From a bacterium (GTDB taxonomy: Bacteria > Bacillota_I > Bacilli_A > RF39 > UBA660), in assembly GCA_029100545.1 (NCBI GenBank), contig JAQXPH010000008.1:1-53779 (forward strand): a stretch of 53,779 nt of DNA, read 5' to 3'. Position 1 is the stretch's first letter; the number at the start of each line of letters is the position of its first letter. The translations under genes and the position numbers were made by a program. Below, one piece after another: positions 40,608 to 51,645 of the stretch. Below the pieces are notes generated by a model that worked only from the letters and a program-made list of their open reading frames with translations, searched no databases and had not been told where the DNA came from.

Positions 40608-42770
40608 TCATTCTTTTTTTGCTTGTTCTTCCTGAAGTTTTTTAGATATTTCTTCAGAAACACGTCCGCTCTCCTTTTTAAATGTATCTGTGTTATACAT
40701 TAAATTAACTTTTATATCACCTTTACTTAAGTCATCATACGCATTTTTTACTGTTTCAAAAGATAAATTATTAAATGCTTTTTCAATTTCTTTTTCTTGT
40801 TCTGCAGTCAATTTATTTATTGAGCCCATTTTATTAATTACTTCAATATTAGCATGCTGTTTTTTAAACATTTCAAATTCTTGTGCAACTGCATCATACC
40901 TTAAATCAGTACCTAATTTTTCACTTACAGTTTTTAATTTAGCAAGTTTAATTAAATTATCATACATTTTTATATCTGCAGTTTTTCTTTGAATATCAAC
41001 TGCCATGGCTTCATTTTTAGTATTATAAAATTTTCCATCCCCAGCTTTAAACCTTTTTTCTTTTCTAATTTCTCCAGTAGTAATATCTTTTATATTAACC
41101 TCTTGTTCAACATATTTACTTTCATCAATTTCTCTTTCTTGTGCTTTTTTCTTTTGACCTTCATAAGCTAAAACTAATTCATTATCTGCAGCCAAATCAA
41201 ATAATTTTTTTTGAAAAGCAATTCCTTGATTGTAAATTTCTTGTTCTTTTTTTAATTCATCATAATTACTTGAAATGCCAGCCCAATCCTTAATATCTTG
41301 GATTTGCTCTTTAATATGTGCTTTAGTTGTTCCCATAAATCCTGGATTACTTGCTTTATATGATTCTCTTTTTGTTCTATTCGCTACAGACTGATCTGCT
41401 GCTTTACCTGCTGCTGCCTTCATATCTTTTCCACTACCAGCACCCTTTGCATACCAAAGTCCTTTAGTAAGACCAGAGGTACCACCCGCAACTGTACTTC
41501 CAATACCTTTAACTAAAGCTTTAGCTTTGGCTTTTCCTCCATTTGCGTCTTTAAAATTTCCAAAAGCATTTACAGCATTTCGAGTTAGAGCAGTAACTCC
41601 ACCACCAATTGCCGCACCTGCAGCAAATGCACCTCCTGCTTTTAATTTATCTTTAATACCAAGTTTCATATCACCATCACCAAAACCAAATAAATCGCTT
41701 AAAAGTTTTGGAGCTTGTCTCATAAACGCCACTACTCCTAAAATTATAAAGCATTTGGCAAGAAGGTTTAAAAAACCATTTCCAGTGTCAGTAGAATTAG
41801 CAAATAAATTAAAGTCTGAAATTAAGGATATAAAATATACGCCTAAATTCATAATGAATACTCTTGTAAAAGAACTCATAAAGGTTTTTCCAACATTTGA
41901 AAGCCATTTTTTAAATATATCATCCATTTTAGGAATTACCATACAAAATATAGCAATGGGAGCAATTATTTGGTAAAAAGCAAGTTTGCAAACTCTAATA
42001 CCCATATCAAAGCAAAATGAAATCATTACATATACCAAAAAACCGCCAACAATTAATGCAGCAAACCAATCAAAGTCTACCTCACCTTCGTAAATGTTTT
42101 TTGCAAAAGCTCTAAATACACTAAAGGAACCTGTTTCTAATGCAAAATTAGTTGCACGTTCTAAAGAGCATTCTTCATCGCCATCTTCATCAGAACATTC
42201 AAACTCATGACTGCTTCCATTTGGACCAGTTGCACGAATTACACCAATGTCAGTTTTTCCATATACATTATTACTATCACCACCTGTTGGACTAAAAAAA
42301 GGTAAAAAAGTATTAACACTCATATAGATTCCACCATAATGTATACTATCAACTTCATTTGTATTACCTGTAAAAATACCACTAATAATTTCAGAATTTA
42401 AAAATGCAGATTGAAACCCATAAGCAAATTGAAATATAGATGGACATAATGTAATTAAAATAATTGATATAATAAAATTTGTAAATATTTTTTTACCATC
42501 AACAGCACTTTTATTACTATCTGGATCAACAATTTTATTTAAAATTCCATATGAAAGAATAAAAAGCATTACAATACTTAATATTTTATATATATTTGCA
42601 GTTATTGATGAAAAATCTTCTTGATTAAAAATATTATTTTCAGCTAACGCTAAAAAAATTCTATATGCAAAATTTACAAGTTTAAAAATTCCTCCTACTA
42701 AGGAAATAATAACTTTATTAAAAAATTCACCTATATCTGCAATAATGTTTGATATCAATAATCCATTCAT
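40608..42770 (-). CDS. VirB6/TrbL-like polytopic T4SS protein
   Basis: 720 aa from MNGLLISNIIADIGEFF (GGGAG overlaps a weaker upstream ATG). About seven TM helices in the first 360 residues (for example LSIVMLFILSYGIL and IIAPIAIFCMVIP), with an extracytoplasmic Asp/Glu/Gly loop between; then an Ala/Gly-rich region (GGAFAAGAAIGGGVTA) and a long Lys/Glu coiled-coil C-terminus. Size, topology and place in the locus match the VirB6-type channel component (PrgH/TrsL-like). Exact family not assigned. Confidence 0.8.
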   Translation of the reverse strand: MNGLLISNIIADIGEFFNKVIISLVGGIFKLVNFAYRIFLALAENNIFNQEDFSSITANIYKILSIVMLFILSYGILNKIVDPDSNKSAVDGKKIFTNFIISIILITLCPSIFQFAYGFQSAFLNSEIISGIFTGNTNEVDSIHYGGIYMSVNTFLPFFSPTGGDSNNVYGKTDIGVIRATGPNGSSHEFECSDEDGDEECSLERATNFALETGSFSVFRAFAKNIYEGEVDFDWFAALIVGGFLVYVMISFCFDMGIRVCKLAFYQIIAPIAIFCMVIPKMDDIFKKWLSNVGKTFMSSFTRVFIMNLGVYFISLISDFNLFANSTDTGNGFLNLLAKCFIILGVVAFMRQAPKLLSDLFGFGDGDMKLGIKDKLKAGGAFAAGAAIGGGVTALTRNAVNAFGNFKDANGGKAKAKALVKGIGSTVAGGTSGLTKGLWYAKGAGSGKDMKAAAGKAADQSVANRTKRESYKASNPGFMGTTKAHIKEQIQDIKDWAGISSNYDELKKEQEIYNQGIAFQKKLFDLAADNELVLAYEGQKKKAQEREIDESKYVEQEVNIKDITTGEIRKEKRFKAGDGKFYNTKNEAMAVDIQRKTADIKMYDNLIKLAKLKTVSEKLGTDLRYDAVAQEFEMFKKQHANIEVINKMGSINKLTAEQEKEIEKAFNNLSFETVKNAYDDLSKGDIKVNLMYNTDTFKKESGRVSEEISKKLQEEQAKKE

Positions 42771-42889
42771 ATTTACTCCCATTAAACAATTATTATGGTA
42801 TATTAATTTATTTTACTATTAATAAATTATAAACTATATTTTTTTTATATGCAATATTAAATTAAAACTAAAATTTTCCAAAACAACAA

Positions 42890-43429
42890 TCAACTTTTAA
42901 CATCTATTGTTGTAGTAGTATTTTTTTTACTACCGCTTTTTTTCTTAGCAGTAGACTTTCTTGAAGATCCAGAACAATTAGATTCCAATAAACATTCAGT
43001 ACATGCTCTATACTCACTTGTTACATTATCAGCATCGTCTATATACCCTATTATAGTAGAAATTAATGTTGGTAAAAAGAAAATAAAAATACCTAATATA
43101 ATTTTCATTACTAGAGAAGAAACTGTTTTTGAAAGCATACTTTGATCATCTGAAATAATAACTTTAGCAAGTGAAATTATACCCAAAATTATTATTATTA
43201 TGGGGATAGCTACTTTTAATATAAAAAATAAAACTGAAAATAGTTCAAGAACCTTAATAACATTTTCATTAGAGCAAGATAACGCATCAACAGCTGTACC
43301 ATCTAATATATAATTATAATTATGTTGATTATTTAAAATATTACTATTATTTGTAGCAGCAAATGCAACAGTTTTAAATGATAAAAAGGTAAGAATAACA
43401 GTTAAAATATAAACAAAATATTTTTTCAT
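42890..43429 (-). CDS. VirB2-like pilin protein
   Basis: 179 aa with a cleavable signal peptide (MKKYFVYILTVILTFLSF..AFAA), then two hydrophobic helices (about 65-90 and 110-135) separated by a short basic/polar loop (KVIISDDQSMLSKTVSS), the VirB2/TrbC pilin layout. The tail is Cys- and Ser/Lys-rich (CTECLLESNC). It heads the minus-strand T4SS operon. A second protein with the same core lies on the opposite strand just beyond. Homology by fold only. Confidence 0.7.
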   Translation of the reverse strand: MKKYFVYILTVILTFLSFKTVAFAATNNSNILNNQHNYNYILDGTAVDALSCSNENVIKVLELFSVLFFILKVAIPIIIIILGIISLAKVIISDDQSMLSKTVSSLVMKIILGIFIFFLPTLISTIIGYIDDADNVTSEYRACTECLLESNCSGSSRKSTAKKKSGSKKNTTTTIDVKS

Positions 43430-43540
43430 TTCATCACCACCTAAATTATATAATACTATGCCTTTTTTATCAAGAAATAAATAATTGAAAATTATTGTAA
43501 AAATATTGTTATTCTAGAAAATAAATGATAAAATGTTAAT

Positions 43541-44569
43541 ATGAAAAAAGTTATATATTTAAGTATATTAGTATTATCAATATTATTTATATATCAAAAA
43601 CCAGTAAACGCTGCTATTTGTAATAATGTTATTCATAATTCTTCTGGAAATTATGATTCATTATCTTGCTTTTTAACTATAGAAGACAAAACATGTTTGG
43701 TTAAGTTTGTAAAATATAGTGATGGAAGTGCTGGATTATATATTGAAGGTGAAAAACAAGAATCACTAAACAAAAGAAATTACAATTGTAAAACATGCGA
43801 TGTATCTTTTACATTAGATAATACACTTGAAAATGGTATAAATGATTTAAATAATATTGTAGTAAGTGTAGAAAGTTCAAGTTCAGGAAAATATAAATTT
43901 AGTGGTATAAAAAGTTACGAAAAAGATACAATTATTTGTTCTAATGATAATTATAATTTTATTGTCGATGAAGAAGATGGACATATATGTAAAGTAGTAA
44001 TAAAGTCTAATTCAGATGGTAATGTTGAAATGACTTACGGAGATCAAAAAACAATAAATCCTAAAAAAGGAACCTATACGTGTACTGTTGGAGGAGATTC
44101 AATTACATTTACTTTACCAAAAGATTTACCAAAAAACTCAATATCTTCAACTTCTGATTGTCCAAATTTATCTTCTAGTGCCAAAAAAGAAACTGATAAT
44201 GATGAAAATACAGAAACAACAGAAGAGGAAAAGGAGCATCTAGATAACAGTGATTATGATAATTCAAATAATGGTTTAAATTCCGAAACAGGTGAATTAG
44301 ATTGTACACAAGTCATTAAGGGTGACTTGTTAACCTACATTGAAAAAATATTAAGTTTAATGAAATATGCTGGAATAATATTATGTATAGGACTTACAAT
44401 AGCTGATTTTGCTAAAGCTATTATTGGTGATGATAAAGATGTATTAAATAAAATAGTTAAAAAAGCATTTATAAGAATTATATTAGTGGCACTTTTATTC
44501 TTCTTACCTACAATAATTAACTTTGTATTAAGTATTGTTAATGAAAATGCCTGTCCAATTAATTTTTAA
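43541..44569 (+). CDS. second VirB2-like protein with large ectodomain
   Basis: 342 aa. Signal peptide (MKKVIYLSILVLSILFIY..NAA), then about 230 residues of extracytoplasmic, Cys-rich sequence with two related repeat-like Cys segments (YNCKTCDVSFTLDN and YTCTVGGDSITFTL), an acidic linker, and a C-terminal two-helix module (about 270-295 and 305-330). That module shares AKxIIGDDK..L.K.....RI..xA.xFFLPTxI with the pilin on the other strand. Probably a pilus or surface component with a displayed domain. It is transcribed divergently from the T4SS operon. Confidence 0.7.
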   Translation: MKKVIYLSILVLSILFIYQKPVNAAICNNVIHNSSGNYDSLSCFLTIEDKTCLVKFVKYSDGSAGLYIEGEKQESLNKRNYNCKTCDVSFTLDNTLENGINDLNNIVVSVESSSSGKYKFSGIKSYEKDTIICSNDNYNFIVDEEDGHICKVVIKSNSDGNVEMTYGDQKTINPKKGTYTCTVGGDSITFTLPKDLPKNSISSTSDCPNLSSSAKKETDNDENTETTEEEKEHLDNSDYDNSNNGLNSETGELDCTQVIKGDLLTYIEKILSLMKYAGIILCIGLTIADFAKAIIGDDKDVLNKIVKKAFIRIILVALLFFLPTIINFVLSIVNENACPINF

Positions 44570-46997: not shown

Positions 46998-47071
46998 TGG
47001 CAGGGGTGGCAGGAGTTGAACCCACATGAATGGTTTTGGAGACCATCATTCTACCATTGAATTACACCCCT
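46998..47071 (-). tRNA. trnW: tRNA-Trp(CCA)
   Basis: On the minus strand the acceptor stem AGGGGTG/CACCCCT, anticodon stem ATGGT/ACCAT with loop CTCCAAA (anticodon CCA) and T-arm GTGGGTTCAACTCCTGC make a normal cloverleaf. CCA is encoded at 47000-46998. CCA anticodon (UGG only) agrees with TGA being a stop here. Confidence 0.96.
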
Positions 47072-47150: not shown

Positions 47151-47180
47151 TAGACATAATTTTTTATTTTTGATATAATG
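47151..47180 (+). promoter_or_regulatory. promoter of the large structured RNA
   Basis: TAGACA (47151-47156), 18 bp, TATAAT (47175-47180) on the plus strand; start of transcription near 47187. It diverges from the tRNA-Trp promoter. Confidence 0.6.
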
Positions 47181-47186
47181 TAGGTG

Positions 47187-47670
47187 TGGTGCATTATGCT
47201 AGTCACAATCACTATTTGAAGATGGGGCTAAAAATCCATTAATTGATACAAGACACTTTATGTATTTGCTTCTTCTGCCCAAGTTGGGGTGAATATGTAA
47301 TTTTAAATTATAGGGAGATTATAATGGCATATAATTGAACCCCTGTAATTACGTCAAGAAAAAACAAATTCATGTCGTGAGTGGTTATAAGGGATTAAAC
47401 GATACGGTGATTTTATGAAATTGTAACTGCAAAAGCGAATAAGAATAGTTTAGATGTGTCAGGGAAAACCTCTAGCGTGTTATTTATTATAAAGATTGAA
47501 GTGCGGACTAATGTGGCAATCGAGTAATTAGTTAGGCAACTGCTAGTTATTTTCTTTAAAGAGAAATCGCCTACGGGTAACCAAGGGAGAGAAAATAGAG
47601 AAATTCAACTCGACCAAAGCCGTAAGATTAATTTATAATAAACCATAATTTTTAAATAACTTTATAGGAG
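47187..47670 (+). ncRNA. large structured noncoding RNA or leader (about 480 nt)
   Basis: No ORF of meaningful length lies here although the flanks are densely coding. The base composition is distinctly more GC-rich and balanced than the surrounding AT-rich intergenic DNA, with short conserved-looking blocks. Helices I can pair: ATGG/CCAT at 47222-47240, GGGGT/ACCCC around 47286 and 47340, ACTAAT (about 47509) with ATTAGT (about 47528), and TAGGC/GCCTA enclosing AACTgctAGTT and TTTTCTttaaAGAGAA hairpins (47532-47575). The RNA begins behind its own promoter and no terminator is seen before the next ORF, so it may be a long leader. Known classes such as RNase P, tmRNA, SRP and group II do not match by motif. 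Large ornate RNAs of the ROOL/GOLLD type are a guess only. Confidence 0.55.
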
Positions 47671-47676
47671 GGTTAT

Positions 47677-48192
47677 ATGAAAAAAAATAACTGGGTATAT
47701 AAAGTTTTTTTATGCACATTTATCTTATCTGTTGTATTTAGTTTCATTACAAATTTTTTATCTAGTCATTCAAATATTTTTATAATGATTATAATAATAA
47801 CAATTGTTATTGCAATAGGAATAATATTTGATATGATAGGCGCTAGTAGTTTAACAAGTAAAGAAGCAACATTTCATTCAATGAGTTCAAAAAAAATCAA
47901 AGGTGCAAAAGAAACAATAAAATTAATTAAAAATAATGCAAAAGTTTCAAGCGTATGTAACGATATAGTGGGAGATATTTGTGGAATTATAAGTGGTGGT
48001 CTTGGTGCAGTACTTGCCATATCGATAGCCAAAGCTACTGGATTTAACACAACATTAATAAGTGTAATTATCGCAGCAATAATATCTTCACTTACTGTTG
48101 GAGGAAAAGCCATATTTAAAAGCATAGCTATTAAAAATTCAGATAAAATTATATTTAACGTAGGAAAGTTTGTTAGTATATTTAAAAAATAG
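47677..48192 (+). CDS. CorB-like membrane protein
   Basis: 171 aa with four hydrophobic helices (about 10-25, 35-55, 105-125, 130-150). The central segment KKIKGAKETIKLIKNNAKV followed by NDIVGDICGIISGG resembles proteins annotated as CorB/DUF21-type divalent-cation transporters in Clostridia, but the CBS domains are absent. Start follows GGAGGG directly downstream of the long structured RNA, which would be its 5' leader if it is co-transcribed. Confidence 0.6.
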   Translation: MKKNNWVYKVFLCTFILSVVFSFITNFLSSHSNIFIMIIIITIVIAIGIIFDMIGASSLTSKEATFHSMSSKKIKGAKETIKLIKNNAKVSSVCNDIVGDICGIISGGLGAVLAISIAKATGFNTTLISVIIAAIISSLTVGGKAIFKSIAIKNSDKIIFNVGKFVSIFKK

Positions 48193-48232
48193 CAAACTTT
48201 CTTTTTTTACATATTATATTTTAGGTGATAAC

Positions 48233-48655
48233 ATGATTGTATCTTATACGTCAAAAGAACTGGATCTTCTTGCAAGAATAATGAGAGCTGAAGCATTAAA
48301 TGAAGGAGAACTAGGGATGCTTATGGTTGGAAATGTTGTAGTAAATAGAGTTTTAGCAAATTGTCTAACATTTAAAAATATTAATAGTGTATATAATGCT
48401 ATTTATCAAAAAAATCAATTTGTTGGAACTGAAAGTTCACTATTTCAAGCAAGTGCTACAACTTTAGAAAAAAATCTTGCAAAAAGAATATTAGAGGGGG
48501 AATACTATTATCCTGCTACTAACGCATTATGGTTTTATGCACCCAATAAAAACGAAAATTGTAAAAGTGTTTGGTATGATCAAAATTTAGCAGGAAGATA
48601 TAAAAACCATTGTTTCTATAATCCTGATCCAGGAGTATGTCGTGAAATACATTAA
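48233..48655 (+). CDS. SleB/CwlJ-type cell wall hydrolase
   Basis: 140 aa from MIVSYTSKELDLLAR, with AGGTGATAAC upstream (the 21 codons upstream belong to the preceding gene's tail region). LARIMRAEALNEGELGMLM (catalytic Glu of the Hydrolase_2 domain), VGNVVVNRV, YNAIYQKNQF and ALWFYAP are SleB/CwlJ family features. No signal peptide, like CwlJ. In sporulating bacteria such enzymes lyse cortex; here it lies outside any spore gene cluster. A terminator follows. Confidence 0.88.
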   Translation: MIVSYTSKELDLLARIMRAEALNEGELGMLMVGNVVVNRVLANCLTFKNINSVYNAIYQKNQFVGTESSLFQASATTLEKNLAKRILEGEYYYPATNALWFYAPNKNENCKSVWYDQNLAGRYKNHCFYNPDPGVCREIH

Positions 48656-50841: not shown

Positions 50842-50876
50842 TAAAAAAATATGAAGTATTATACCTCATATTTTTA
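50842..50876 (-). terminator. terminator of the amidase gene
   Basis: On the minus strand AAATATGAGG and CTTCATATTT form a stem (one GU pair) followed by seven T; the stop codon of the amidase lies inside the stem. Confidence 0.75.
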
Positions 50877-51645
50877 ATATTTGTCCTATTGATAATAAAT
50901 TACTTTGTAAATTATTTTTCTTTTTTAGTTCGTTTACCGTTGTATTATATTTATTTGCTATTGACCATAAAGTGTCTCCTTTTTTTACTGTATATGTTTG
51001 TAATGTTGAAGGAACAATTAATTCTTGACCAATAGATAGTAAATTACTTTGTAAATTGTTATCCTTTTTTAGTTTATCCACTGTTGTATTATACATATTT
51101 GCTATTTTATATAATGTATCCCCTTTTTTTACAATATAAATATTTTCATTACTTGGTGTAATTTCAGTTCCTTTAATTTTTAATTTTTGTCCTATTGATA
51201 ATAAATTTGATGATAAATTATTTAATTTTTTTAGATTATCTACTGTTGTATTATATTTTTTAGCAATACTCCAAAGAGAGTCTCCTTTTTGAACAATATA
51301 ATAATCTTCCGAAACTGAGGAACCTTTTAATGAATATGGAACTCCTATATAATCAGCTAATGCTTTTACAACTGCTTCTGCTAGATCTTCCCAATTATTT
51401 TTTAATAAATTTACATCATCACCAGTACTATCTAAAAAACCATATTCAACTATTAAAGTTTCATTATTAGGTGTATCTCTTAACAAATAATAATAATCTT
51501 TGGCAGGATTACTTGGAAGTCTTCTTTGATAATATTTGCGAACATTTTGACCTGATGATTCAAGTTCTTTAGCAATCATTTTTGATAATTTATCATTGTT
51601 TCTAAGTGCATAAATTATTTCAGCACCATCGCCACCTGCCGATGG
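50866..51645 (-). pseudogene. 5'-truncated Amidase_3-LysM wall hydrolase
   Basis: The sequence from AGGDGAEIIYALRNN onward is the C-terminal half of an N-acetylmuramoyl-L-alanine amidase (Amidase_3; NVRKYYQRRLPSNPAKD and IVEYGFLDS with the catalytic Glu). Three LysM repeats follow (YIVQKGDSLWSIAKKYNTTV, YIVKKGDTLYKIANMYNTTV and YTVKKGDTLWSIANKYNTTV), each about 45 residues and ending LSIGQ. The N-terminal half with the zinc His ligands is missing: an in-frame TGA and foreign sequence stand directly before GGDGAE. The internal ATG at 51579 lacks a ribosome site. The break coincides with a perfect short inverted repeat. Confidence 0.8.

Follow-up and report, generated by a model that had tools for sequence, protein, structure and literature searches.

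The DNA analysed here, hereafter the window, is a stretch of 53,779 nucleotides from a bacterium of the RF39 group (GenBank assembly GCA_029100545.1, contig JAQXPH010000008.1). An Rfam cmscan of the whole window returned three matches, i.e., two tRNAs and the OLE RNA (RF01071), the latter with a score of 232 bits (E = 3e-64) over the full model (positions 1–616), compared with a gathering score of 50 bits for this family. No open reading frame of 40 aa or more covers the RNA block. The outermost pair of helix P1 joins 47186 with 47646, which gives the RNA proper a length of about 460 nt. The oapA gene follows in tandem, 14 nt from the end of the Rfam match, with the ribosome-binding site AGGAGG at 47666–47671 (Table 1). 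A cell-wall hydrolase (Hydrolase_2) is encoded directly after oapA (48236–48655), and a protein with three LysM domains lies nearby (50866–51579). Between 3 and 7 kb upstream of ole, the window encodes large membrane proteins resembling conjugative-transfer proteins (40608–44569), with weak, sub-cut-off matches to TrbL/VirB6 and to the ICE families MMCAP2_0566 and Mbov_0396; this region is possibly an integrated conjugative element.

Table 1. Features of the ole–oapA locus of the window (window coordinates) and very short OLE loci of related genomes (locus coordinates)
Feature	Position	Strand	Basis
Sigma-70-type promoter: TAGACA 47151–47156, 17-nt spacer, TATAAT 47174–47179; predicted RNA start ~47186	47151–47179	+	Pattern scan only
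OLE RNA (RF01071); RNA proper by P1 ~47186–47646	47170–47662	+	cmscan; Rfam model takes in flanks
P2/P3 5′ strands 47195–47202, 47204–47207, 47211–47216, paired with 47472–47479, 47455–47458, 47444–47449	47195–47216	+	Alignment fold, pair counts
P4 hairpin, loop CUAAAAAU	47221–47240	+	Loop invariant in 35-sequence alignment; L4 contact by PMC12286853
P5 hairpin, loop GCCCA 47277–47281	47258–47300	+	11/17 pairs with two-sided changes; GCCCA in 35/35 short OLEs
P6 hairpin, loop with GGCA 47326–47329	47306–47350	+	Covarying helices; GGCA in 35/35 short OLEs
Short linker in place of full-length P7 and P8	47351–47368	+	Rfam alignment deletions; gappy in short class
P9 with truncated arm, no palindromic P9.3 kissing loop	47375–47438	+	P9 helices supported; arm comparison
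3′ domain, P11–P13 region; hairpin loops GGCAAC ~47535–47540, GGUAAC ~47575–47581	47487–47638	+	Rfam alignment, covariation
oapA, 171-aa CNNM-like membrane protein, motif CNDIVGDICG (DxxxD)	47677–48192	+	Pfam CNNM below cut-off, DxxxD, position
Possible terminator 3′ of oapA: GAAAGTTTG ... CAAACTTTC, then seven T	48164–48208	+	Direct reading
Very short OLEs, 378–381 nt	L217:1501–1878; L218:1501–1878 (minus); L219:1501–1881		Rfam matches

The downstream gene, described as CorB-like in the original prediction, is read as oapA, the standard neighbour of ole, on the basis of its sequence. Its product matches Pfam CNNM with E = 8.7e-5 and 22.7 bits (cut-off 28.4 bits) and carries the DxxxD motif, which separates OapA from other CNNM proteins (PMC11332333). 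A CNNM-like oapA gene with DxxxD lies downstream of OLE in all 74 loci examined. An extra ORF of about 130–280 aa stands between ole and oapA at L038, L047, L051, L071, and L072, so the pair need not directly adjoin. The named relatives of the window OapA come from gut metagenome genomes labelled Bacilli, Tenericutes, or Erysipelotrichaceae. MpfA as a replacement was considered and rejected: within the genus, CNNM matches at E ≤ 0.001 occur only at OLE loci, with none in the OLE-less congeners.

The promoter proposed in the original prediction is real as a pattern, with 11 of 12 consensus matches and the top score of the region in a pattern scan, and since this best promoter-like site ends at 47179, the RNA probably starts near 47186, as had been predicted. 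The terminator scan of the region found none between ole and oapA, so read-through into oapA is likely; the candidate 3′ of oapA is absent from the list of that scan, its loop being longer than the scan rule allows. The tRNA-Trp gene adjoining the RNA block (46998–47071, reverse strand) had been taken as a clue to the nature of the RNA, and it was rejected as such for lack of conservation outside the genus; in a scan of 41 related loci, the only other OLE with a tRNA-Trp nearby was that of L034, from a congener.

The tandem layout and the likely read-through also fit the earlier suggestion of a giant 5′ leader of the membrane protein gene, in which the RNA would regulate oapA in cis rather than act in trans. 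However, the conservation of the OLE architecture goes far beyond the needs of a leader, and in relatives with an intervening ORF oapA can lie 941 nt (L038), 949 nt (L047), or 395 nt (L051) downstream. In addition, the OLE of H. halodurans, about 630 nt long, is known as a discrete OapA-binding RNA, not as a cis-acting leader (PMC9723947). The suggestion is half right as regards layout, and the cis-acting role is very unlikely.

The fold was assessed in an alignment of the window RNA with 34 short OLEs of the same order (n = 35). The consensus fold comprises 128 pairs in which 97.4% of the cells hold standard pairs (82.8% in shuffles), and 81 of the 128 pairs show two-sided changes, with 664 such cells vs. 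191 in shuffles; the structure is somewhat favoured in these counts by having been derived from the same alignment, and it agrees with the independent Rfam model. None of 500 shuffles scored as high as the real fold, the signal was lost when partners were slid by one to three columns, and one P2 pair varies between UA, GC, and CG across the alignment. Single-sequence folding of the 465-nt RNA gave a modest signal (z = −2.1; 2 of 100 dinucleotide shuffles were as good), and the decisive evidence for a structured RNA is the Rfam score together with the covariation in 35 sequences. Two helices put forward earlier, ACTAAT/ATTAGT and TAGGC/GCCTA, were rejected: their paired cells (71.6% and 69.8%, respectively) are no better than in shuffles (70.0% and 70.9%), and each uses bases of supported OLE helices.

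The same alignment bears on whether the locus is a decaying OLE gene that has lost its function in a shrinking genome. The RNA is below full length, its Rfam score of 232 bits compares with 350–437 bits for long OLEs, and OLE is patchy in the genus (4 of 10 genomes, some of the OLE-less ones being more than 93% complete), so that it is dispensable in some congeners. Against this stand the compensatory changes in 35 sequences and the many invariant loop bases, as well as an intact oapA and −10/−35 promoter elements that are near consensus as a pattern; decay is thus rated highly improbable, slightly below the leader. An RNA resembling ROOL or GOLLD, or a new class of large RNA, suggested earlier by size and ornate appearance, is refuted and has practically no probability left, because the Rfam scan of the window matched neither family and yielded only OLE, at full model length.

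The block is almost certainly the gene for a compact "variant 2" OLE RNA in an ole–oapA pair. The original prediction was therefore right in placing, at essentially these coordinates, a large, gene-free, structured noncoding RNA with its own promoter upstream of a CorB/CNNM-like membrane protein gene, and right that it is not RNase P, tmRNA, SRP RNA, a T-box, or a group II intron; it was wrong in leaving the RNA unassigned, OLE being one of the three families (with ROOL and GOLLD) that it had listed for an Rfam search. The OLE type found in the window was already known, and the window RNA is a further variant-2 OLE that needs no new explanation.

The window RNA retains P1–P6, P9, the 3′ domain, and the contact loops L4, L5, and L6; P7 and P8 are deleted both in the Rfam alignment and in the alignment of the short class. 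In the cryo-EM structure, the OLE dimer is held by L4 (A–A pairs, bridge B1), by L5–L6–L7, and by the kissing loop L9.3 (PMC12286853). The P6 region, which is part of bridge B2 (PMC12286853) and is bound by bS21 in H. halodurans (PMC12054373), is retained in the window RNA. All 35 short OLEs have the P4 loop, GCCCA in P5, and GGCA in P6. The window RNA lacks the P9.3 kissing arm, as do 33 of 35 short relatives. The median length of the arm is 34 nt in short OLEs vs. 68 nt in long OLEs, and the window's P9 loop contains no palindromic hexamer. Of the short OLEs, only L045 and L053 retain a TGATCA loop, with AT-only or chance palindromes present in a few others. The tip of P9.3 carries a self-complementary hexamer in 25 of the 34 long OLEs of the order (TGGCCA in 15, TGTACA in 4, TAGCTA in 4, AGGCCT in 1, and GTCGAC in 1). 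This hexamer varies yet stays self-complementary, matching the demands of a homodimeric kissing loop. A simple search for GATGA as the 5′ strand of the k-turn was uninformative, since the sequence in the long OLEs of the order is mostly TGTGAA.

OLE was detected in 167 out of 288 genomes from the order and in none of the 14 controls. Among 74 full loci, 34 are long (569–618 nt), 35 short (479–519 nt), and 5 in between, and the window OLE belongs to the short class; the sample was picked to include both size classes and is therefore uninformative on their frequency. One genome (G199) has two OLE matches on two contigs (L206 and L220; 349.9 and 378.9 bits), which may reflect either two gene copies or a bin that contains mixed strains. 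The variant-2 form, lacking P7 and P8, was reported to be commonest in RF39 bacteria, and the clades that carry it are small-genome gut bacteria, largely without OapB and OapC (Fernando and Breaker 2024, PMC11332333).

No OapC (L7Ae family) was found in the window's genome, which is about 93% complete (best E = 0.98), and no L7Ae-family protein scored above the cut-off in any of the 288 genomes of the order, whichever OLE they carry, the controls, including B. subtilis, being positive. The usual place of the OapB gene in Bacillus is between map and infA. The gap between these two genes is 7 nt in the window's genome and does not exceed 63 nt in any of the 50 genomes in which it was measurable; therefore, these genomes have no OapB gene at that site, the one place searched. 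bS21 is present in the window's genome (E = 7e-16). Published work on other species describes OLE as a dimeric RNA that is located at the membrane, where its protein partner is the membrane protein OapA, and that cells require in order to grow in the cold, in ethanol, or at raised Mg2+ (PMC9723947, PMC12265935). Its host in the present case would be an uncultured species of gut Bacilli with a genome of about 1.13 Mb. There, transcription of OLE would start at its own promoter and probably continue into oapA, and by analogy with other species the RNA would fold into the OLE architecture, dimerise, and bind OapA. The resulting ribonucleoprotein may act at the membrane in connection with stress and Mg2+, as in other species, and the function of OLE in this lineage rests wholly on the H. 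halodurans analogy. We infer that the particle here is reduced, consisting essentially of OLE RNA and OapA, perhaps with bS21.

The RNA and its partner protein appear as matched pairs. The OapA tree (77 proteins) is divided in two by its root branch, with support of 100/99. The first side (38 rows) holds the OapAs of long OLEs and four of the five in-between forms, and the second (39 rows) holds those of all short OLEs, of the three very short ones, and of L037; the short and very short OapAs alone group with support of 95/78, which is likely but not firm. A species tree built from adk, map, infA, rpsM, and rpsK of 56 genomes, with G259 left out, also has two halves. Four short-OLE genomes, G109 (genus g41), G143 (g22), and G046 and G084 (both g33), fall inside its long-OLE half, G109 and G143 adjoining long-OLE congeners. 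A short OLE with a short-type OapA was found at five loci of long-half genomes (loci L047, L049, L060, L064, and L069; genomes G143, G109, G046, G084, and G259). A tree constrained to place the OapAs of G143, G109, and g33 among those of long OLEs was rejected (p-AU = 0.006), for a grouping named after the trees had been seen.

For G143, mis-binning is unlikely, because its ole lies on a 235-kb contig whose TypA is 77–82% identical to g22 and g46 but 50% to g23 and g60, while its OapA is 62–65% identical to the OapAs of G191 (g23) and G109. For G109, where ole is near the contig end, mis-binning may apply. The genes neighbouring the candidate transferred loci differ, with none in common. Short ole–oapA pairs occur within long-OLE genera at least three times, which suggests joint transfer of ole and oapA as a matched unit on at least as many occasions; a possible alternative reading would be that ancient duplicates were lost differentially. 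Three further candidates were set aside. G209 was not retained among the short OLEs of the transfer argument, since its match is truncated by the contig boundary and it has a long-type OapA. An OapA match on a Pusillibacter faecalis plasmid (NZ_AP023421) belongs to a classical ole–oapA–dxs–tlyA–argR operon whose OLE is full-length; the replicon measures 504 kb, and the match is therefore weak evidence of mobility. A "phage" OapA match (MT835614) is an unverified faecal scaffold, with no OLE in the stretch read.

Still shorter OLEs, of 378–381 nt, were found in G026, G268, and G034 (genera g25 and g30), where the whole Rfam model is matched at 134–139 bits, 4–6 nt upstream of oapA. These RNAs are without P5–P8, their P4a is self-closing (UGUUAA...UUAACA), and they retain the L4 loop and, in P9, a loop with UGAUCA. 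Provided that the scores can be compared, they would fall under the 235-bit cut-off of the 2024 survey (PMC11332333), and no description of such a form was found in a search of open-access papers on OLE RNA with RF39, which yielded that survey only. The dimer contacts thus differ by form, i.e., L4, L5, and L6 without L9.3 in variant 2, and L4 with the UGAUCA loop but without P5 and P6 in the 380-nt form.

A broader reading is offered tentatively, with somewhat less than even confidence. OLE in small-genome gut bacteria may have been trimmed to several sizes (about 600, 490, and 380 nt), with a separate OapA clade co-inherited with each; ole and oapA would pass from genus to genus as a matched unit that lacks OapC and apparently also OapB. 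If true, the RNA and its partner protein are exchanged between species together, the minimal working particle is the RNA plus OapA, and selection acts on dimerisation rather than on any one arm. The matched pairs and the 378–381-nt forms in relatives provide natural deletion mutants for the requirements of dimerisation and OapA binding. The possible needs of the particle are narrowed by a natural OLE that has dispensed with P7, P8, and its kissing arm in bacteria lacking OapC.

In comparison with known systems, the window OapA shares a CNNM-like membrane domain with the CNNM/MpfA transporters; however, it has only 171 aa, lacks CBS domains, stays below the Pfam CNNM cut-off, and carries the DxxxD typical of the OapA family. 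The full-length OLEs of H. halodurans and C. acetobutylicum (PMC9723947, PMC12286853) show the same helix order (P1–P6, P9, and the 3′ domain), the same L4, L5, and L6 loops, and an adjoining oapA. In contrast, they measure about 600 nt, rather than about 460 nt, and possess P7, P8, and the P9.3 kissing loop, all three absent from the window RNA, whose genome is without OapC, and without OapB at the usual site. The closest counterpart is variant 2 (PMC11332333), which likewise lacks P7 and P8 and keeps the other conserved nucleotides, the window RNA and its short relatives (33 of 35) differing in the additional loss of the P9.3 kissing arm. The bit range of variant 2 is 235–310 under its authors' own model, and the window RNA, scored at 232 bits with the different Rfam model, comes close to it.
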